The notes below the pieces were generated by a model. It did no database searches. It was not told where the DNA came from and saw only the letters and a program-made list of their open reading frames with translations. The translations under genes were made by a program, and so were the position numbers. Below are positions 1-8,682 of a DNA stretch of 40,099 nucleotides, piece by piece. The stretch is from Terriglobia bacterium (GTDB lineage: Bacteria; Acidobacteriota; Terriglobia; UBA7540). Every line of letters starts with the position of its first letter. The first letter of the stretch is position 1. Location: contig JAIQEZ010000030.1 of NCBI GenBank assembly GCA_020073545.1, positions 1 to 40,099 on the forward strand, in the 5' to 3' direction.

Positions 1-1
1 T

Positions 2-301
2 CGCAACAAAACCTGGAGGGCTTTTGGGGCGCGGAGCTGGGACTGGTTGGGTGCTGTGGTGATGGGCCTGATGTGGATGGGTTCCATTGCGCTTTACGGG
101 GTGGCCACAACCTATCTTGGCCCTTCCGGCGCGGCCATCGGCTGGGGACTGTTTTCCATTTTTGTCATTCTCGCCGCGAACCTCTCGGGCTTGGTTATGG
201 GCGAGTGGCGCAAGGCCGGAGCGCGGCCCCTGCGGAACCTTGGGTGGGGTTTAGCCTTTCTGACCATGGCCTCGGTTGTCATCGCTTGGGGCAATCGTTA
301 G
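2..301 (+). CDS. RhaT-like sugar/proton symporter, C-terminal fragment
   Basis: The frame is open from the left edge and ends at TAG 299-301, so only about the last 100 residues are present. Two hydrophobic membrane segments are visible, one around GLMWMGSIALYGVATTYLG and one around AAIGWGLFSIFVILAANLSG, followed by a GEWR motif and a last hydrophobic stretch. The pattern ATYLG...IGW...N.xGLxxGEW is that of the C-terminus of the L-rhamnose/H+ symporter RhaT family, an inner-membrane DMT-like carrier. Internal TTG and GTG codons (47, 59) are not true starts. The substrate cannot be read from a fragment. It lies upstream of the his promoter and is probably a separate transcription unit. Confidence 0.75.
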   Translation, partial: RNKTWRAFGARSWDWLGAVVMGLMWMGSIALYGVATTYLGPSGAAIGWGLFSIFVILAANLSGLVMGEWRKAGARPLRNLGWGLAFLTMASVVIAWGNR

Positions 302-365
302 CAGTATCCTCGTCAGCGACTCTCGCGCTTTTTCGTGGGCACGCGCCTTCCGCGCAAAATCCGTG

Positions 366-394
366 TTGACAGGTCGGGGGCAAAACGGTACGCT
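366..394 (+). promoter_or_regulatory. his operon promoter (sigma-70 like)
   Basis: A perfect -35 TTGACA (366-371) is followed by a 17-nt spacer and a -10-like TACGCT (389-394), which keeps the key T1, A2 and T6. The start point would fall near 400-402, just ahead of the leader peptide ATG at 403. The placement agrees with the attenuator downstream. The -10 match is only three of six, so the exact start is inferred. Confidence 0.55.
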
Positions 395-402
395 GAAAAT
401 TC

Positions 403-474
403 ATGTTGCGCGCACTGGCACATCACCATCATCATTTCCAGTTCGGGGTGGCGTGTCAGTGGGTCAATGCTTAG
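403..474 (+). CDS. hisL: histidine operon leader peptide (five tandem His codons)
   Basis: ATG 403 opens a 23-codon frame ending in TAG 472-474. It begins MLRALA, continues with five uninterrupted His codons (CAT CAC CAT CAT CAT, 421-435), then FQFGVACQWVNA. It lies 82 bases before hisI, upstream of a perfect terminator hairpin. Its role would be to sense charged tRNA-His: scarcity stalls the ribosome on the His codons and lets the operon be transcribed, as in enterobacterial hisL. The peptide itself need have no function. No Shine-Dalgarno is obvious, and the predicted transcript start lies only about 1-3 nt before the ATG, so initiation may be leaderless. Confidence 0.85.
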   Translation: MLRALAHHHHHFQFGVACQWVNA

Positions 475-536
475 ACCACCAAGCGAGATCGAGGAAGCGG
501 CCCGCTGGCAAATGGAATCAGCGGGCTTTTTCATTT
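413..536 (+). promoter_or_regulatory. his operon ribosome-mediated transcription attenuator
   Basis: Three mutually exclusive pairings can be drawn. Segment 1:2 pairs 413-421 with 453-461 (9 bp, one G-U) and starts just before the His codons. Segment 2:3, the antiterminator, pairs 454-465 with 499-510 (12 continuous bp, three G-U). Segment 3:4, the terminator, pairs 499-507 with 519-527 and is followed by a T run. A ribosome stalled on the His codons (421-435) masks segment 1 and frees segment 2 to pair with 3, giving readthrough. A ribosome reaching the stop at 472 covers segment 2, so the terminator forms. This is the classical his/trp attenuator logic. Pairing was worked out by hand and no folding energy was computed. 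Confidence 0.85.
499..536 (+). terminator. intrinsic terminator of the his attenuator
   Basis: GCCCGCTG (500-507) and CAGCGGGC (519-526) form a perfect 8-bp stem, extendable by a G-T pair 499/527. The loop is 11 nt (508-518), and T5 (527-531) followed by CATTT completes the signal. It ends 20 bases before hisI and after the leader peptide stop, so it acts on leader transcripts and does not end the previous gene. Confidence 0.88.
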
Positions 537-555: not shown

Positions 556-951
556 ATGCTGGAATTGAAATATGAGGCGGACGGACTGATCCCGGCAGTT
601 ATTCAGGACCGTCACAGTGGAAAAGTCTTGATGCTGGGGTACATGAACGCGGAGGCATGCCAGCAGACACTCGACTCCGGATTTGTGACCTTCTTCAGCC
701 GCACGCGGCAGAAGCTGTGGACCAAGGGTGAGACCTCCGGGCACCGGCTGGTGGTGCGCGAGATTCGCGTGGACTGCGACCAGGACGCACTGCTGATTCA
801 AGCCGAACTGGCCGGTCCGGGCTGTTGCCATCTTGGCTACCGCTCGTGTTTCTTCCGTAAGCTTACCGAGAAAGGCGAGGAGATCATCCTGGAGCGCGAG
901 TTCGATCCTGCGAAAGTTTATGGTCAGGATCACCCGGAGAGCCAGACATGA
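556..951 (+). CDS. hisI: phosphoribosyl-AMP cyclohydrolase
   Basis: 131 residues, the normal size for a stand-alone HisI. It hydrolyses the adenine ring of phosphoribosyl-AMP (third step of histidine synthesis) in the cytosol. Family signatures are visible: [10 protein letters not shown] near residue 27, [19 protein letters not shown] in the middle, and the metal-site region [14 protein letters not shown] near the C-terminus, whose cysteines bind zinc. GGGAG at 545-549 supports the ATG at 556. The HisE pyrophosphatase domain found fused in enterobacteria is absent, and no hisE gene is in the window. It is the first structural gene after the attenuator and overlaps hisG by 4 nt. Confidence 0.95.
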
Positions 952-1820
952 ACCTGCTGAAATTGGGAATGCCCAAAGGAAGCCTGCAAGAAGCCTCGCT
1001 GCAGCTCTTTCGCCGCGCGGGATACGAAATCGGTGTTAATCCGCGCTCGTATTTTCCCTCCATCGACGATGATGAAATCGAGTGCATGCTGATCCGCGCG
1101 CAGGAAATGGCGCGCTACGTCGAGGACGGCATTCTCGACGCTGGCCTGACCGGCAAGGACTGGATTCTGGAAAACGAAGCGAACGTGGTGGAAGTCGCCG
1201 ACTTGGTTTACGCCAAGCAGACGTTCGGCAAGGTGCGCTGGGTGCTCGCCGTGCCGGAAAAATCCCCTTTCCAGAGCGTGAAGGATCTGGAGGGAAAAAT
1301 CATCGCCACGGAGCTGGTCGGCGTGACCCGGCGCTACCTCGCGCAGAACGGCGTCAAAGCCAAAGTGGAGTTTTCCTGGGGCGCGACGGAAGTAAAACCT
1401 CCGGTGCTGGCGGACGCCATTGTCGAGGTCACCGAGACCGGCTCTTCCCTGCGCGCTAATGGCTTGCGCATCGTCGAGACGGTGCTCGAATCGAACACCA
1501 AGTTCATTGCTCATCCCACTGCCTGGGAAGATTCCTGGAAGCGCCAGAAAATCCAGACGCTGGTCATGTTGCTGCAAGGCGCCATCGAAGCCGCGGGCAA
1601 GGTCGGCTTGATGCTCAACGTGCGCCGCGTCGATCTGGCAAACGTGCTCGCCGTCCTCCCGGCTTTGAAACGCCCCACCGTCTCGAACTTGAGCGATGCC
1701 GATTGGGTCGCCGTCAATACCGTGATCGAAGAGAGGACCGTGCGCGAGATTATTCCCCGCCTCAAGGCTGCACACGCGCAGGGCATTGTGGAATATCCCC
1801 TGAATAAGATTGTGATCTGA
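948..1820 (+). CDS. hisG: ATP phosphoribosyltransferase, long form
   Basis: 290 residues, matching the long HisG form that carries its own C-terminal ACT-like regulatory domain and needs no HisZ partner. It joins ATP and PRPP in the committed step of histidine synthesis and is normally feedback-inhibited by histidine. Landmarks are LGMPKGSL at the N-terminus, DAGLTGKDW near residue 65, and the PRPP-binding stretch [16 protein letters not shown] around 160-175. The regulatory domain covers about 200-290. The ATG at 948 overlaps the hisI stop as ATGA. A 70-nt spacer follows before hisD. Confidence 0.95.
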
Positions 1821-1890
1821 AAAAAGGGGACTGAGTGCTAGGTACTGGGGAGCGGGGTTTTGCCTTTTCCCCCACCCCCGAGCTTGTCCG
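1821..1890 (+). repeat. 70-nt hisG-hisD spacer with a CTGAGTGCT word
   Basis: The spacer starts with A6 and GGGG and contains CTGAGTGCT (1831-1839), the reverse complement of AGCACTCAG found in the hisH-hisF spacer (5511-5519). AAAAGG and CCTTTT could form a weak 6-bp stem. It looks like a shorter or decayed member of the word-repeat spacers seen elsewhere in this window. Evidence for a defined element is weak. Confidence 0.3.
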
Positions 1891-3180
1891 ATGCTTGACA
1901 TCATCCGCAGTACAGATCGCAACGCGATAGATCGCCTTCTCCAGGCACGCACCACCAGCTTGGCCGAAGCCGAGGCGGTGGTCCGCCCCATCCTGGACGA
2001 CATCCGCCGACAGGGGGACCGCGCCCTCCGGCGGTACGCGAGAAAGTTCGACCGCCTCGACCTCCGCAAAGCCGGCTTTACGGTCTCGTCTGACGAGATT
2101 CGCCACGCCTATCGCAAGGTTCCGCGCGGCTTCGTGGCGGCGCTGCGGGTGGCGGCCGCGAACATTCGCAAGACGGCTCGCCGCCAGTTGCCGCGCCCCT
2201 GGACTTTCGAGACCCGTACTGGCGTGAGCGTAGGGCAGGTGGTCCGCCCGCTCGAAGGCGTGGCCTGTTACGTTCCCGGCGGACGTTTTCCCCTGCCCTC
2301 CACGGTGCTTATGAGCGTCATCCCCGCGCAGGAAGCCGGCGTGCGCGAGGTGATGGTGACCTCGCCGCGGCCCGCGCCTGCCGTCCTGGTCGCCGCCGAT
2401 GTTCTCGGCATCAGAAAAATCTTCCGCCTGGGCGGTGCGCAGGCGGTCGCCGCCTTTGCTTACGGGACGGAGTCCGTGCCGCGTGTTGACAAGATCGTGG
2501 GCCCGGGGAATCGTTACGTTGCCGCGGCGAAGAAGCTGGTGGCGGGGGAGTGCGGCATCGATTTCGTCGCGGGGCCGTCGGAGCTTGTGCTGGTGGGCGC
2601 GCGCGGTGACCCGGAGTGGATCGCCTCCGACCTGGTCGCGCAGGCCGAACACGATCCCGACGCGGTTGCGATTCTTATTACCCCTTCGTTCAAGCTGGCG
2701 CTGCAAGTGCAAGCCGCGGCGAGGGGAATCCTGGCGCGGCTGGCATTGCCCCTGGCGGAGCGAGCGCTGGCCGCCCAGGGCGGGATCGTTGTGACGCGCA
2801 CACTGGCAGAGGCCGCGGGACTGGCGAACCGCTTGGCCCCCGAGCACCTCACGCTCTTGGAAGGCGCCGCCGGCCTGCTCGGCCGGGTCCGGTCTGCCGG
2901 CTCGATATTCCTCGGCGCCTACAGCCCTGTGGCCGCCGGGGATTATGCCTCCGGGACTAATCACATCCTTCCAACCAGCGGAGCGGCGCGCTTACGCGGT
3001 GGGTTGAGCGCCGCGGATTTTGTGAAGACCATTTCCGTGCAGCGGCTCAGCCGCCGCGGACTGGCAGGCCTGAAGAATGCCATCGTGACGCTTGCCAATA
3101 CCGAGGGCCTGAAAGCGCACGCCTTTTCTGTGCAGGCCAGGTTTCGGTCTTCCGGCGGAGAGAGGACCCCGAAGCGATGA
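1891..3180 (+). CDS. hisD: histidinol dehydrogenase
   Basis: 429 residues, the usual length. It oxidises L-histidinol to L-histidine in two NAD-dependent steps using zinc. Signatures include CYVPGGRFPLPSTVLM (about 125-140), FRLGGAQAVAAFAYGTESVP, KIVGPGNRYVAAAKKLV, the GPSELVLV loop, and the AQAEHDPDAVAI segment carrying the catalytic/zinc region. SGTNHILPTSGAAR follows near residue 355. The ATG at 1891 follows the hisG spacer without a strong Shine-Dalgarno. The gene ends in a 4-nt overlap with hisC. Confidence 0.96.
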   Translation: MLDIIRSTDRNAIDRLLQARTTSLAEAEAVVRPILDDIRRQGDRALRRYARKFDRLDLRKAGFTVSSDEIRHAYRKVPRGFVAALRVAAANIRKTARRQLPRPWTFETRTGVSVGQVVRPLEGVACYVPGGRFPLPSTVLMSVIPAQEAGVREVMVTSPRPAPAVLVAADVLGIRKIFRLGGAQAVAAFAYGTESVPRVDKIVGPGNRYVAAAKKLVAGECGIDFVAGPSELVLVGARGDPEWIASDLVAQAEHDPDAVAILITPSFKLALQVQAAARGILARLALPLAERALAAQGGIVVTRTLAEAAGLANRLAPEHLTLLEGAAGLLGRVRSAGSIFLGAYSPVAAGDYASGTNHILPTSGAARLRGGLSAADFVKTISVQRLSRRGLAGLKNAIVTLANTEGLKAHAFSVQARFRSSGGERTPKR

Positions 3181-4304
3181 TTCGACCTCGCAAGGCCATT
3201 GAACGTCTGACCCAGTATCGACCTCCGCAGGAAGGTCGCGGCGGCAAGATGCGGCTCGACTTCAACGAGAATACGGTCGGCTGCGCTCGGCAGGTGGTCC
3301 GGGCGCTGCGGCGAGCCGTGAACCCCGAGTTGCTGACGCGCTACCCCGAGTATGACGAAGGTCGGCGCACGCTGGCCGCCTATTTTGGTGTGGCGCCGGA
3401 AGAGTTGGTGCTCACCAACGGCACGGACGACGCCATCAAAACGGTTTGCGACACCTTCGTCGATCCTGACGACACGCTGCTGGTTCCTGCTCCGACTTTT
3501 CCGGTGTACGAATTCTTCCACAGCGTCGCGGGTGGAAAGACTCTGCGCATTCGCTACGATGAAAATTTCCGCCTGCCCAGCAAGAAATTTGTCGGTGCTC
3601 TGAAGAGGCAGCCCGTGCGCTGGGTGGCGCTGGCCAATCCCAACAACCCCACCGGCACACAAATTCCCCATGCCGATCTGAAAGCGATCCTGCTGGCTGC
3701 TCCGGACACTTTGGTGCTGGTCGATGAGGCGTATTACGATTTTGCCGGTGAGACCGTTCTTCCCTGGATTCGCAAATATCCCAACCTGGTTGTGACCCGA
3801 ACCTTCTCGAAGGCCTTCGGCCTGGCGGCGCTGCGCCTGGGTTGCTTGTTCGCAAACGGCATGCTGACCGAATCCCTGCGCCGCGGCCAGAATCCTTTCG
3901 CAGTGAACTCACTGGCCTTGATATCTGCCTGCGTCGCGATTCAGTACGATGCCCAGGTACGTAAGTACGCGGGCGAAGTCCGCTGGAACCGCACGGAATT
4001 CTCCCGCTGGCTTGAGGCACGGGAGATTCCCTACGTCCCCAGTTCCGCGAATTTCGTCCTGACGCGCGTGGGCCGCCACGCTCCGGAAATCGCTCGGCAT
4101 CTGCGCGCCGAGGGCATTCTGGTGCGCGACTGGAGTTACGACCCGCACCTGAAGGGTTACCTGCGCTTCACTATCGGCTCCGTGGCCCAAACGCGCCGGC
4201 TGATGGCGGAACTCGAACGCGTCAAAAACCTCATCGAAAGCCCCCGCGGCGCGCGGGCCTGGAAGAATATGGTCTCCCACCCCTCCACGGGATGGTTCGC
4301 ATGA
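3177..4304 (+). CDS. hisC: histidinol-phosphate aminotransferase
   Basis: 375 residues, class I/II PLP aminotransferase. It moves an amino group from glutamate to imidazole-acetol phosphate. The motif [12 protein letters not shown] (about 157-168), [11 protein letters not shown], and the PLP-lysine segment [16 protein letters not shown] (about 207-222) are all present, and RFTIGS near the C-terminus is typical of HisC. It starts in ATGA overlap with hisD and ends in ATGA overlap with hisB. Related enzymes also use aromatic amino acids, but the operon position makes HisC secure. Confidence 0.93.
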
Positions 4305-4894
4305 AACCGCGCACCGCCACCCTGCACCGCAAGACGGCTGAGACGGATATCCGCGCGCGCTTGAATCTGGACGGTCGCGGCCGTTATGAGATCTCGACGG
4401 GCGTTCGCTTCCTCGACCACATGCTGGAGCTTTTCGCGCGGCACGGCGGCTTCGACTTGGATCTCGAGGCGCGCGGCGACCTGGATGTCGATCAGCACCA
4501 CACGGTGGAAGATGTGGGCCTCGTGCTCGGCCACCTGCTGCGCAAGGCGCTCGGATCAAAGAAAGGTATTAACCGCGCAGGTTATTTCCTTATGCCTATG
4601 GATGAGACCCTGGCGATTGCCGCCCTCGACCTGAGCGGGCGGCCTTACCTGGTGCTGAACGCTCCTCTCAAGGCGCGGCGCGTAGGCGACCTCCAGAGCG
4701 AGCTGCTGGAAGATTTCTTTCAGGGATTTGCCGCCGGCGCGGCGGCCAACCTACACCTCAAAGTGGCATATGGACGGTCCAGCCATCACGCCGTGGAAGC
4801 CTTGTTCAAGGCATTTGCGCGGGCGCTGCGCTATGCCTGCTCCCGAGATCGGCGTCTGAAGTCGCAACTCCCCAGCACGAAGGGGCTCCTATGA
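4301..4894 (+). CDS. hisB: imidazoleglycerol-phosphate dehydratase
   Basis: 197 residues from the ATG at 4301, which overlaps the hisC stop as ATGA. An in-frame ATG at 4292 is less likely. The protein is monofunctional; the HisB phosphatase domain of enterobacteria is absent. The two Mn-binding His clusters are clear: [14 protein letters not shown] and [10 protein letters not shown] in the first half, and [19 protein letters not shown] near the C-terminus. It dehydrates imidazole glycerol phosphate to imidazole acetol phosphate. No histidinol-phosphatase gene is seen in the window. Confidence 0.95.
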
Positions 4895-5484
4895 TTGCCG
4901 TGCTCGATTACGGCGCCGGCAATGTGGGCTCGGTGCTCAAGGCTATCGAGTACCTGGGCTTTTCGGCGCAGCGGATCGATCACCCCAAGGCGCTGCGTTC
5001 GGCCGAGAAGATCATTTTTCCTGGGCAGGGCCACTTCGGCGCCATGATGAAAGCCCTCGCGGAGCGCAACATGCTCACACCACTGCGGGAGGCGCTCGGG
5101 GAAGGGAAAGCTTTTCTCGGTATCTGCCTCGGCTTGCAGGCGCTCTACGAAGCGAGCGACGAAGCACCCGATGTGGCCGGCCTCGGAATCCTGCCGGGTC
5201 GCGTGACCCGCTTCCAAGGCGTTTTCAAGGTTCCGCACGTCGGCTGGAGCCAGCTCGAATTGCGACGCGATGGCGGATTGTTCCAAGGCGTCGCAGACGG
5301 CAGCTTTGTCTACTATTGCCATTCTTATTATGGGCCTGTCACCCCTGAGAGCTGCGCAGTCACAGAATACGGCCAGACGTTCGCGGCCGGAGTCGAGCTG
5401 GACAAAATCTGGGCCGTGCAGTTCCACCCGGAAAAGTCAGGGGATGTAGGGCTGGCGGTCCTGAAGAATTTTCTGAACGCGTGA
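4891..5484 (+). CDS. hisH: imidazole glycerol phosphate synthase, glutaminase subunit
   Basis: 197 residues, class I glutamine amidotransferase. It releases ammonia from glutamine and channels it to HisF. The nucleophile is Cys79 in FLGICLGLQ, and the partner His179/Glu181 pair lies in [20 protein letters not shown] at the N-terminus is the standard HisH opening. The start overlaps hisB as ATGA. A 96-nt word-repeat spacer separates it from its partner hisF, which is unusual because the two subunits act as a complex. Confidence 0.95.
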
Positions 5485-5510
5485 AGGGAGAAGCGATCAG
5501 CGGATGAAGA

Positions 5511-5576
5511 AGCACTCAGCATTCAGCGGTCAGCTAATGCTCTGGCTGAGAGCTGAAAGTTGACTGCTGACAGCTA
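5511..5576 (+). repeat. hisH-hisF spacer: AGC-word repeat hairpin
   Basis: The spacer is built of repeated words of the type CAGCANTCAGC and GCTGANAGCTGA. A 13-bp dyad with two mismatches, TTCAGCGGTCAGC (5522-5534) against GCTGAGAGCTGAA (5545-5557), has a 10-nt loop. AGCACTCAG at 5511-5519 recurs inverted in the hisG-hisD spacer. There is no coding potential. It occupies the place where a normal operon would have few or no bases. Confidence 0.6.
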
Positions 5577-5580
5577 AACC

Positions 5581-6351
5581 ATGTTCGCCAAACGCATCAT
5601 TCCGTGTCTCGACTGCAAAGACGGCCGCGTGGTGAAAGGCATCCAGTTCGTCAACCTGCGGGATGCCGGCGATCCGGGCGAGCTGGCGGAGATGTACAAC
5701 CGCGAAGGTGCGGACGAGCTCGTGATGCTCGACATCTCCGCCTCGCGCGAGGGCCGCGCGACGCTGATGGACACGGTGAAGCGCGTGGCGCGGCGGCTTT
5801 TCATTCCGCTCACGGTAGGCGGCGGGGTGCGCGCGCTCGATGACGCACGGCGGCTGCTTTCCGCCGGGGCCGATAAGGTCGCGGTCAACACGGCGGCGGC
5901 TGAAACGCCTGAGGTGGTCAGCGTCATCGCGGAGAATTACGGGCGCCAGGCCGTCGTGGTGGCCATCGACGCGCGGCGGCGAAGGGCTTCCGTGGATGGT
6001 CCGCATTGGGAAGTGGTGACCTACGGGGGCACGCGGCCCACCGGACTGGATGCTCTGGAGTGGGCGCAGCGCGTGGAGGAGCTGGGCGCGGGTGAAATTC
6101 TGCTGACCTCCATGGACGCGGACGGCACGCAGGCGGGTTTCGACTGCGAGCTCACCGCCACGATCGCACGCGCGCTGCACATCCCGGTCATCGCTTCGGG
6201 CGGCGCAGGCGGCCCGGACCATTTCGCGGAAGTGTTTTTGCGAGGTTGCGCCGACGCTGCGCTGGCCGCTTCGATTTTTCATTATGAGACGCACACCATC
6301 CGCAGCCTGAAAGAATTCCTGCGCGCCCAAGGCGTGCCTGTTAGGATTTAG
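5581..6351 (+). CDS. hisF: imidazole glycerol phosphate synthase, cyclase subunit
   Basis: 256 residues, (beta/alpha)8 barrel. It closes the imidazole ring using ammonia from HisH and releases AICAR. The opening motif [18 protein letters not shown] carries the first catalytic Asp (CLD). The second catalytic Asp is in [14 protein letters not shown] (about residue 180). Phosphate-binding loops VGGGVRA and ASGGAGG are present. The ATG at 5581 follows the AGC-word spacer with no clear Shine-Dalgarno. The TAG at 6349-6351 lies in the first bases of the next spacer repeat. Confidence 0.96.
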
Positions 6352-6448
6352 GATCAAGGATTCAGGACTCAGGGAGGCATTCCGGCGCGTACAGGTGAAG
6401 CCAGGAAGGATGCGCGGTCTGGAATCCTAAGTCCTGAATCCTAAATCC
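6351..6448 (+). repeat. hisF-hisA spacer: long inverted repeat (GGATTCAGGACT words)
   Basis: Left arm 6351-6373 and right arm 6426-6448 are reverse complements at 20 of 23 positions, around a 52-nt loop. The core word GGATTCAGGACT is perfect in both arms. The left arm begins on the last base of the hisF stop codon. The transcript would form a strong stem between two co-transcribed genes. There is no T run, so it is not a plain terminator. Confidence 0.75.
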
Positions 6449-6457
6449 TGCTTTCCC

Positions 6458-7165
6458 ATGGTCATCCCCTGCATCGACTTGATGGATCGCAAGGTCGTGC
6501 AACTGATTCAGGGCAAGGAGAAATTCCTGGAGCTGCCCGACGCGGTTGCCGTGCTCGAGAAATTTGCGAACTATCCGGAAATCCAGGTGATCGACCTCGA
6601 CGCGGCGATGGGCAAAGCGGAGAACAACGCCGAGATCGTGCGCGAGCTTTGCCGCCGCAAACCCTGCCGCGTGGGCGGCGGCATTCGCAGCGTGGAGCGC
6701 GCACAGGCGGCCGCAGGAGACGGTGCGCTCAAGGTCATTGTGGGTAGTAGCGCCTTCAGCGCGCGCGGCATCAATGAAGAATTCTTGCGCGGTCTCGTGG
6801 CAGCCATGCCGCGCGATAAGATTCTGATCGCCGTGGATTCTCTTGGCGACCGCGTGGCGATTCGTGGCTGGCGCGAGACGCTGCCGCTCACCGCCGCGCA
6901 GGCGCTGCCTCAGCTCGAAGCTTATTGCTCGGAGTTTCTCTGCACCTACATCGATGCGGAAGGAAAACTGCAAGGGACGAACCTAGATTGGTTCCGGAGC
7001 TTGCGCGCCGCCACCAAGCTGCCCATCACCGCGGCGGGGGGCATCACCACCGACGACGAAATTCAGGCGCTGGAAGAACTCGGCATGAACTCGGCGCTGG
7101 GGATGGCGATCTACCGGAAGGTCTTCCCGGAATTCTTCGTGGAGCGCGAGCCCGGCAGGCACTGA
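6458..7165 (+). CDS. hisA: phosphoribosylformimino-AICAR phosphate isomerase (HisA)
   Basis: 235 residues, half-barrel-repeat TIM barrel related to HisF. It opens ProFAR to PRFAR just before the HisF step. The first catalytic Asp is in VIPCIDLMDRK, the second in IAVDSLGDRVAIRGW, and the catalytic Thr in FLCTYIDAEGKLQG. Phosphate loops are RVGGGIRS and TAAGGITT. The sequence is somewhat diverged from proteobacterial HisA (DAEGKLQG in place of RDGTLxG), but all catalytic positions remain. It is placed after hisF; hisA-hisF order is more common. It is the last gene of the operon. Confidence 0.9.
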   Translation: MVIPCIDLMDRKVVQLIQGKEKFLELPDAVAVLEKFANYPEIQVIDLDAAMGKAENNAEIVRELCRRKPCRVGGGIRSVERAQAAAGDGALKVIVGSSAFSARGINEEFLRGLVAAMPRDKILIAVDSLGDRVAIRGWRETLPLTAAQALPQLEAYCSEFLCTYIDAEGKLQGTNLDWFRSLRAATKLPITAAGGITTDDEIQALEELGMNSALGMAIYRKVFPEFFVEREPGRH

Positions 7166-7348: not shown

Positions 7349-7924
7349 CTATTTCTTCGCCCGGCTGCCGGGCTTGACGGCGGGGATTCCTGCCTTGCAC
7401 AGCGGGCAATCAGCGGGACTGTAATTCTGAATCTGCAGGTTGACGAGCGCGGCTTTGGGCAGGCCCAGGTCCGCCGCGCCTCCGCTGCGGTCGATGAGCG
7501 CGCCTGTGCCTACCACCCTGCCGCCCGCTTGCTCGACGCACTGAATCGTCTCGCGCGTGGACAGACCCGTGGTGATCACGTCCTCCACCACCAGCGTGAC
7601 TTCGCCGGGCGCCAAGCTGAAGCCGCGCCGCAGCGTCATGGCGCCCTCTTGCCGCTCGGTGAAAAGTGCGCGCGCGCCCATTGCGCGGGCCACTTCGTGG
7701 GCCACCAGGACTCCCCCAAGCGCCGGCGCTGCCACCACGGCTGGGCACAGGTGACGCATCTTCTCCGCCAGCAGTGACCCCAACTGCTCCGCCACGCGCG
7801 GATGCTGCAGTACGAGCGCGCATTGCACGTAGCGATCGCTGTGCAAGCCCGAGGAAAGAATGAAGTGCCCCTCGAGAACAGCCGAATGCTTGCGAAAGAT
7901 TTCGAGAATCTCGTTTTCTGTCAT
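7349..7924 (-). CDS. pyrE: orotate phosphoribosyltransferase
   Basis: 191 residues. It joins orotate and PRPP to form OMP in the cytosol. The PRPP-binding motif LVVEDVITTGLSTRET (about residues 105-120) and the FILSSGLHSDRYVQ opening are typical of PyrE. The tail carries CPLCKAG and ends with a lysine-rich stretch, also seen in other short PyrE forms. Its ATG overlaps the pyrF stop by 4 nt, so pyrF-pyrE are coupled and act in sequence in UMP synthesis. Confidence 0.93.
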   Translation of the reverse strand: MTENEILEIFRKHSAVLEGHFILSSGLHSDRYVQCALVLQHPRVAEQLGSLLAEKMRHLCPAVVAAPALGGVLVAHEVARAMGARALFTERQEGAMTLRRGFSLAPGEVTLVVEDVITTGLSTRETIQCVEQAGGRVVGTGALIDRSGGAADLGLPKAALVNLQIQNYSPADCPLCKAGIPAVKPGSRAKK

Positions 7925-8682
7925 GAGCGTTGAGCCTGGGATGCAGGCGTTGCGAGCGCCTTTTCGATCTCCGCCGCGATGGCGTCGGCCGCGGCCGCGG
8001 GATCCGAAGCCCCGGTGATGGGCCGTCCAATGACCAGATAGTCCGCACCCGCGCGGATGGCGCTCTCGGGAGTGGCGATGCGCGTCTGATCGTCACTCGC
8101 GGCCGTCACCGGCCTGACGCCAGGCGTGACGATGAGGAAGTTGGGGCCACACGCTCTTCGAATCGCCGTGATTTCACGTGGCGAGGCCACGACGCCGTCC
8201 AGCCCCGCCTTTTGCGCGAGCCGCGCCAGCCGAACCACGACTTCCTCCGGAGATCCCTGGAAGCCCACCTCTGCCAGGTCCTCCGGGCCGAGGCTGGTCA
8301 GGACCGTGACTGCCAGCACCCGCGTGGGCGCCGCGACGGCCCGTGCGCCCTGAGTAGAGCGAACACCTTCCAGGGCGGCTTCCATCATCTTGCGCCCGCC
8401 GGAGGCGTGAACGTTCAGCAGGCTCACGCCTAGCATCGCCGCCTGGCGCGCTGCAGCGCGTACCGTGTTGGGAATGTCGTGAAACTTGAGATCGAGGAAT
8501 ACTCGTTCACCCGTGGCCACGAGGTAGCGTGCCAGCACCGGGCCTTCCGCCGTGAACACTTCCGACCCAACCTTGAACATCCCCACGTGGCCGTGGAGTT
8601 TTTGCGCGACGCATAGACCGGCTTCCGCGCTCGGAACATCCAGCGCCACAATGATTTTTTCCCACGCAGGCATCGCCGCCAT
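7921..8682 (-). CDS. pyrF: orotidine-5'-phosphate decarboxylase
   Basis: 253 residues, group I OMP decarboxylase TIM barrel. It makes UMP from OMP. The catalytic motif FLDLKFHDIPNTV with the essential Lys is near residues 61-73, IVALDVPS gives the first strand Asp, and VTPGVRP and YLVIGRPITGA mark the phosphate site. ATG 8682 and a second ATG three codons on (MAAMPAW) are both usable. It precedes pyrE with a 4-nt overlap. Upstream lies a degenerate intergenic repeat. Confidence 0.95.
   Translation of the reverse strand: MAAMPAWEKIIVALDVPSAEAGLCVAQKLHGHVGMFKVGSEVFTAEGPVLARYLVATGERVFLDLKFHDIPNTVRAAARQAAMLGVSLLNVHASGGRKMMEAALEGVRSTQGARAVAAPTRVLAVTVLTSLGPEDLAEVGFQGSPEEVVVRLARLAQKAGLDGVVASPREITAIRRACGPNFLIVTPGVRPVTAASDDQTRIATPESAIRAGADYLVIGRPITGASDPAAAADAIAAEIEKALATPASQAQRS

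Follow-up and report, generated by a model that had tools for sequence, protein, structure and literature searches.

The his locus and its leader

The window, by which we mean the whole stretch of 40,099 nucleotides analysed, carries a histidine biosynthesis operon in the order hisI-G-D-C-B-H-F-A. After hisI, the operon spans 948-7165 (+). The genes were assigned as follows:

556-951, plus strand: hisI (phosphoribosyl-AMP cyclohydrolase), first gene of the operon; Pfam PF01502
948-1820, plus strand: hisG; ORF and Pfam domain
1891-3180, plus strand: hisD; ORF and Pfam domain
3177-4304, plus strand: hisC; domain plus operon context
4292-4894, plus strand: hisB; ORF and Pfam domain
4891-5484, plus strand: hisH; domain plus operon context
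5581-6351, plus strand: hisF; domain plus operon context
6458-7165, plus strand: hisA; domain plus operon context

The best matches to hisI are all Acidobacteria/Terriglobia records, with Bryobacterales among the closest named relatives, which places the host, a soil bacterium, within the Acidobacteriota. Upstream of the operon a transporter gene in the same orientation ends at about 301. Two ORFs whose translations resemble pyrE and pyrF lie at 7349-8682 on the minus strand, convergent to the his operon.

For the region between the transporter gene and hisI an earlier note had proposed a His-codon attenuator, consisting of a 23-codon leader with five consecutive His codons and three RNA stems that exclude one another. 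The elements of this region are:

366-371, plus strand: -35 box TTGACA of the predicted his promoter, from the sequence and from relatives with the same geometry
389-394, plus strand: -10 box TACGCT, after a 17-nt spacer and ending 8 nt before the leader ATG
403-474, plus strand: leader peptide ORF, 23 codons, encoding MLRALAHHHHHFQFGVACQWVNA; predicted to be leaderless
413-421, plus strand: 5' arm of the pause/anti-antiterminator stem (1:2), 9 bp with one G.U
421-435, plus strand: five consecutive His codons (sensor codons), read from the sequence
453-461, plus strand: 3' arm of the pause stem, pairing with 413-421
454-465, plus strand: 5' arm of the antiterminator, within the leader ORF over its Cys-Gln-Trp-Val codons
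499-510, plus strand: 3' arm of the antiterminator, overlapping the 5' arm of the terminator
500-507, plus strand: 5' arm of the intrinsic terminator, a perfect 8-bp stem
519-526, plus strand: 3' arm of the terminator, pairing with 500-507
527-531, plus strand: T5 tract of the terminator, from the sequence

The leader ORF and its His run were found as described, with the stop codon at 472-474. Within the 40-kb window, on either strand, no other short ORF combines an amino-acid run with a terminator behind it. The clustered codons are those of the amino acid made by the genes downstream, and the His run is kept in relatives. The terminator proved to be a perfect 8-bp hairpin with an 11-nt loop and the T5 tract, and it is separated from hisI by about 25 nt; the hisI Shine-Dalgarno sequence is clear of the hairpin. 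The 12-bp antiterminator is also present, with three G.U pairs; its outermost pair occurs in the window only, and 11 bp are shared with relatives. Pause stem, antiterminator and terminator are indeed mutually exclusive, and the competing antiterminator and intrinsic terminator precede the first biosynthetic gene.

Predicted switching between folds

The leader region folds more stably than expected (z -2.7; equalled by 1 of 200 shuffles). When the leader was masked to 450, corresponding to a ribosome in the His run, and the RNA ended at 515, the antiterminator pairs 454-465/499-510 formed; with the mask extended to 486, corresponding to a ribosome at the stop codon, the terminator formed. Constrained folding gives either structure, and, as the earlier note had remarked, the His codons lie where a stalled ribosome would free the antiterminator. 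Once the RNA is complete, the terminator prevails even with the leader masked to the position of the stalled ribosome, hence antitermination must be kinetic and depend on the order in which the RNA is made. In the same calculation the his leader of E. coli, taken for comparison, likewise favours its terminator in the full RNA, and this preference is consequently no evidence against the mechanism.

A predicted promoter abutting the leader ORF

The TTGACA/TACGCT pair is the best promoter-like site within window positions 300-480. Transcription starts 6-8 nt after a -10 box at the textbook spacing. The start is accordingly predicted at about 401-403, at the leader ATG itself, which would leave the window leader with a 5' UTR of about 0-2 nt. 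Over all leaders the UTR would be about 0-3 nt long and could reach about 7 nt in some members of the window clade, where the gap between -10 box and ATG is 8-14 nt. We scanned 101 leaders for the best promoter-like site within 130 nt of the leader start. In 80% of them, compared with 2.7% in shuffles, the end of this site lay 7-11 nt ahead of the start codon. The measured fraction is lowered by the automatic choice of the most downstream ATG, which mis-set a few starts (for example L003 and L006). The commonest distance was 9 nt. Family f23 (families are labelled by the numbering of our phylum sample of 396 Acidobacteriota genomes) uses another -35 sequence, TTGCAA, mostly beginning 39-40 nt before the ATG.

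Shine-Dalgarno matches point in the same direction. In the window the leader reaches -3.0 kcal/mol, which is no strong match, against -6.5 kcal/mol for hisI; at the same loci, 9% of leaders and 54% of hisI starts reach -5 kcal/mol or lower. With a promoter abutting the ATG and the Shine-Dalgarno sequence mostly absent, the sensor ORF is strongly predicted by promoter geometry to be leaderless. A generic promoter and terminator scanner found neither the promoter nor the terminator of the window, since its limits (four of six matches per hexamer, loop of at most 8 nt) exclude TACGCT and the 11-nt loop.

Window positions 1-371 have a 93.5% identical copy elsewhere in the same genome (contig C34; locus L082, 1501-1871). 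This copy includes the terminal part of the transporter gene upstream of the operon and breaks off directly behind TTGACA, so that the his -35 box sits at the edge of the duplicated segment.

Conservation among close relatives

Upstream of hisI, named relatives whose HisI is 70-83% identical have leaders (MLRALPHHHHHSASAVGCQWANA, MIRTMTHHHHHHSSHGVECQRANT and MLFTLAHHHHHSGHRVWCQWVLA are examples), and the same stems come after them. Their His codons are mixed (CAT 47, CAC 40), which shows that the peptide frame is kept rather than the DNA. In this tight clade 88% of antiterminator cells are paired, the outermost pair being the main exception, as are 99% for the terminator and 89% for the pause stem. 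Covariation there is no greater than in shuffles, and the changes are mostly one-sided, to G.U; low covariation might be expected where each base pairs in two structures. Of the two signs that the earlier note had named for relatives with the same hisI context, the His run is thus kept, while compensatory changes are few in the tight clade and clear in other families.

Distribution across the Acidobacteriota

Searching for three His codons combined with a GC stem and a T-run gave 47 of the 396 genomes, compared with 2 for the reversed pattern. A covariance model built from the window clade (R1) reaches across the class and beyond; its best matches lie almost all upstream of hisI, and its weaker matches mix true and false ones. 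We also took 80 regions upstream of hisI from the same genomes by means of the hisI positions. A leader with a terminator was present in this set in f2, f26, f35, f46, f48, f60, f77 and f86, and at other loci in f3, f17 and f1 (the window's family), giving 11 families in total. None was found upstream of hisI in f25, f34, f41, f49, f55, f63, f72, f78 and others. One f60 genome may be Luteitalea pratensis, and the class Vicinamibacteria is probably included.

Some operons begin with hisG, and most sampled f23 genomes have a His leader upstream of it, which adds at least one family to the 11 with hisI; upstream of hisG no leader was found in f25, f34, f12, f72 and others. The strict terminator search returned nothing in some f17 loci or in the f23 loci, although hairpins with T-runs are visible by eye in the latter. 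His leaders in f30 (G330) and f7 (G350) were left out as insecure, these genomes being 7-8% contaminated.

Pairing statistics over 102 leaders

For 102 distinct leaders we took the strongest pairing that the sequence past the His run can form with the 5' arm of the terminator and compared it with dinucleotide shuffles. The median z was -2.27, and 61 of the 102 leaders reached p<=0.05 (26 of 102 p<=0.01). By group, p<=0.05 was reached in 15/17 leaders of the window clade, 26/31 of the f26 group, 15/36 of f2 and 2/11 of Bryobacterales, counts that are not independent as leaders within a group are kin. The 5' arm of the antiterminator starts 31-36 nt (interquartile range) after the first His codon, with about 88 nt open to it; this would roughly match how far a ribosome extends when it stalls at one of the first His codons.

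Compensatory changes are seen in terminator pairs of f2 (A-U to G-C in 8/26, U-A to C-G in 7/26) and of the f26 group (C-G to G-C in 7/31), and f2 has them in antiterminator pairs as well. RNAalifold gave no antiterminator for the f26 group, for which the single-sequence shuffle tests carry this element instead. As to the 9-bp pause stem of the earlier note, it is present at 413-421/453-461 and reaches p<=0.05 in 12/17 leaders of the window's own clade, compared with 0/36 in f2 and 2/31 in the f26 group. Being unsupported in these two groups, it is a local feature of the window clade.

Proposed mechanism and alternative explanations

The hisI-G-D-C-B-H-F-A operon is very probably controlled by a ribosome-mediated transcription attenuator that senses charged His-tRNA. 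The elements, their mutual exclusion, their conservation, the promoter geometry and the operon context are observed; stalling, termination and leaderless initiation are what these would imply. RNA polymerase would start at the leader ATG or immediately ahead of it, with a ribosome loading straight onto the 5' end. When charged His-tRNA is low, the ribosome would stall in the His run at 421-435 and mask the RNA to about 450, leaving 454-465 free to pair with the emerging 499-510; the terminator would then be blocked and the operon read. With enough histidine the ribosome would reach the stop codon at 472-474 and cover the 5' arm of the antiterminator, and the terminator at 500-526 would form. 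Without translation, the pause stem may capture the 5' arm of the antiterminator, again allowing the terminator to form.

Could the same attenuator have an ordinary 5' UTR, with a promoter further upstream and a leader translated by normal initiation? Transcription from the gene ending at about 301 could read through, and the gaps of up to 14 nt in the window clade leave room for a UTR of up to about 7 nt. However, the best promoter sits close to the start codon in most leaders and rarely in shuffles, most f23 leaders keep their -35 box at a nearly fixed distance from the ATG, and Shine-Dalgarno matches are mostly absent, so we regard this arrangement as unlikely. Translational control, in which the hairpin would hide the hisI start rather than end transcription, might draw on those f17 and f23 loci where the strict search came up empty. 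We consider it very improbable, as the window hairpin ends in T5 well before hisI and spares its Shine-Dalgarno sequence, and the f23 loci show, by eye, hairpins with T-runs that this search missed.

According to Ashniev et al. (2022, PMC9413887), his genes of certain Firmicutes and Actinobacteria are under T-box control, and a T-box or another metabolite riboswitch might control the operon here, with the ORF being incidental. This is strongly disfavoured and hardly credible to us: no Rfam family reached its gathering score in the window leader or in ten related loci, the T-box model was unmatched in the same set, and the His run is conserved as codons. The one sub-threshold match, to Trp_leader (15.2 bits, E 2.2), is at chance level; it rests on the terminator and is no evidence of Trp sensing. 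Finally, since the upstream gene ends at about 301 in the same orientation, the hairpin might be the terminator of that transporter gene with a His-rich ORF ahead of it by chance. A strong predicted promoter at 366-394 lies in between, His leader and terminator recur jointly before hisI across the phylum, and the antiterminator follows the His codons at an almost constant distance; conservation leaves this explanation with next to no chance. Histidine attenuation is the best reading by the elements, the kept His run and the operon context.

Relation to known leaders

The Rfam model for the enterobacterial hisL attenuator (RF00514, His_leader), a search the earlier note had suggested, matched neither the window leader nor the ten related loci and nothing above its cut-off in the 396 genomes; as a control it found E. 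coli. With no such match and sequences so short, neither common descent with the proteobacterial element nor a separate origin can be claimed. Both systems share the His run, a short leader ORF, alternative antiterminator and terminator folds and control of the his operon. Unlike hisL, the acidobacterial leader has a simple three-stem layout, hisI or hisG as first gene, no strong Shine-Dalgarno sequence and a promoter abutting the ATG; the same promoter scan found no promoter abutting hisL at the E. coli locus.

The earlier note was right that his attenuation is best known in Proteobacteria, and Sun et al. (2013, PMC3766115) considered gamma-proteobacteria a possible source of the amino-acid attenuators. 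However, two further papers extend it: His attenuators missed by RF00514 are predicted in three Firmicutes lineages, the B. cereus group, Peptostreptococcaceae and Erysipelotrichales (PMC9413887), and a His leader unmatched by RF00514 is reported for hisS/hisZ in bacilli (Naville and Gautheret 2010, PMC2965389). The Acidobacteriota therefore add one more phylum to the list and do not mark the first departure from Proteobacteria. These Firmicutes leaders likewise combine a His-rich leader peptide, a terminator and an antiterminator; they belong to another phylum, and the cited portions describe no leaderless geometry. As of 2010, PMC2965389 gives leader peptides as known from Proteobacteria and Actinobacteria, and mentions attenuators predicted in Acidobacteria without functions.

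Leaderless attenuator ORFs are known from Sinorhizobium meliloti trpL (PMC7298713) and the Corynebacterium glutamicum ilvBNC leader (PMC11857589), and mycobacterial poly-Cys ORFs are also leaderless (Canestrari 2020, as cited in PMC13236596). All of these transcripts start with the ATG of their sensing ORF, as is predicted here, but they sense Trp, branched-chain amino acids or Cys, and occur in Proteobacteria and Actinobacteria. In a literature search of incomplete coverage we found no published case of a leaderless sensing ORF for histidine and, with one broad attenuator survey falling outside that coverage, no report of a histidine leader peptide from Acidobacteria. The mechanism itself is known; the His attenuator is probably new to the Acidobacteriota, and besides the phylum, a leaderless sensor for His and an operon headed by hisI also appear to be new.

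On balance we lean towards a broader view, in which the leaderless His attenuator is a basic and widespread regulator of histidine synthesis in the Acidobacteriota, unrelated in sequence to the proteobacterial His leader. It may have been kept over deep time, with the distances from promoter to ATG and from His codons to antiterminator near constant, whereas the peptide, the stems and even the leading gene (hisI or hisG) have changed. If so, ribosome loading on a bare 5' end would be part of the timing of the switch. The system is of value for how widely it occurs in a new phylum, for its predicted leaderless sensor and for the near-constant distances. Its presence in many families, unseen by the Rfam model, suggests that the known distribution reflected the limit of the models. 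More than 100 leaders offer a natural set for reading ribosome-set distances from sequence, and they allow the idea that leaderless initiation drives attenuation to be put to the test.

Variant leaders

Several leaders depart from the pattern of the window. The f23 loci L233, L238, L239, L244, L249 and L257 are AT-rich, hisG-first operons whose His leaders often end in HRVN, and a pairing of AACTAAT with ATTAGTT recurs in several of them. Another leader before hisG, L125 of f7 (G350:C167:8867-8965, minus strand), encodes MQTKCRHRHHHHHAAREAGEWSRLHRV and is followed by a terminator; here TTGACA, a 17-nt spacer and TTGACT lie 6 nt from the ATG, in a genome with 7% contamination that makes the origin of this locus uncertain. 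At L004, L014 and L018 other residues, frequently Arg, take the place of part of the His run (L014, MACTLAHRRHRFTFRVSCQWALA), with the stems remaining, and L004 and L014 have few consecutive His codons; these loci possibly represent natural loss or retuning of the sensor. Bryobacterales and relatives (L024-L040, L051) have shorter leaders of 14-17 codons that end soon after the His codons (for example ..HHHHHRSMV). In these, TATACT mostly lies 7-9 nt ahead of the start codon, and the antiterminator is at or past the stop codon, not within the ORF.
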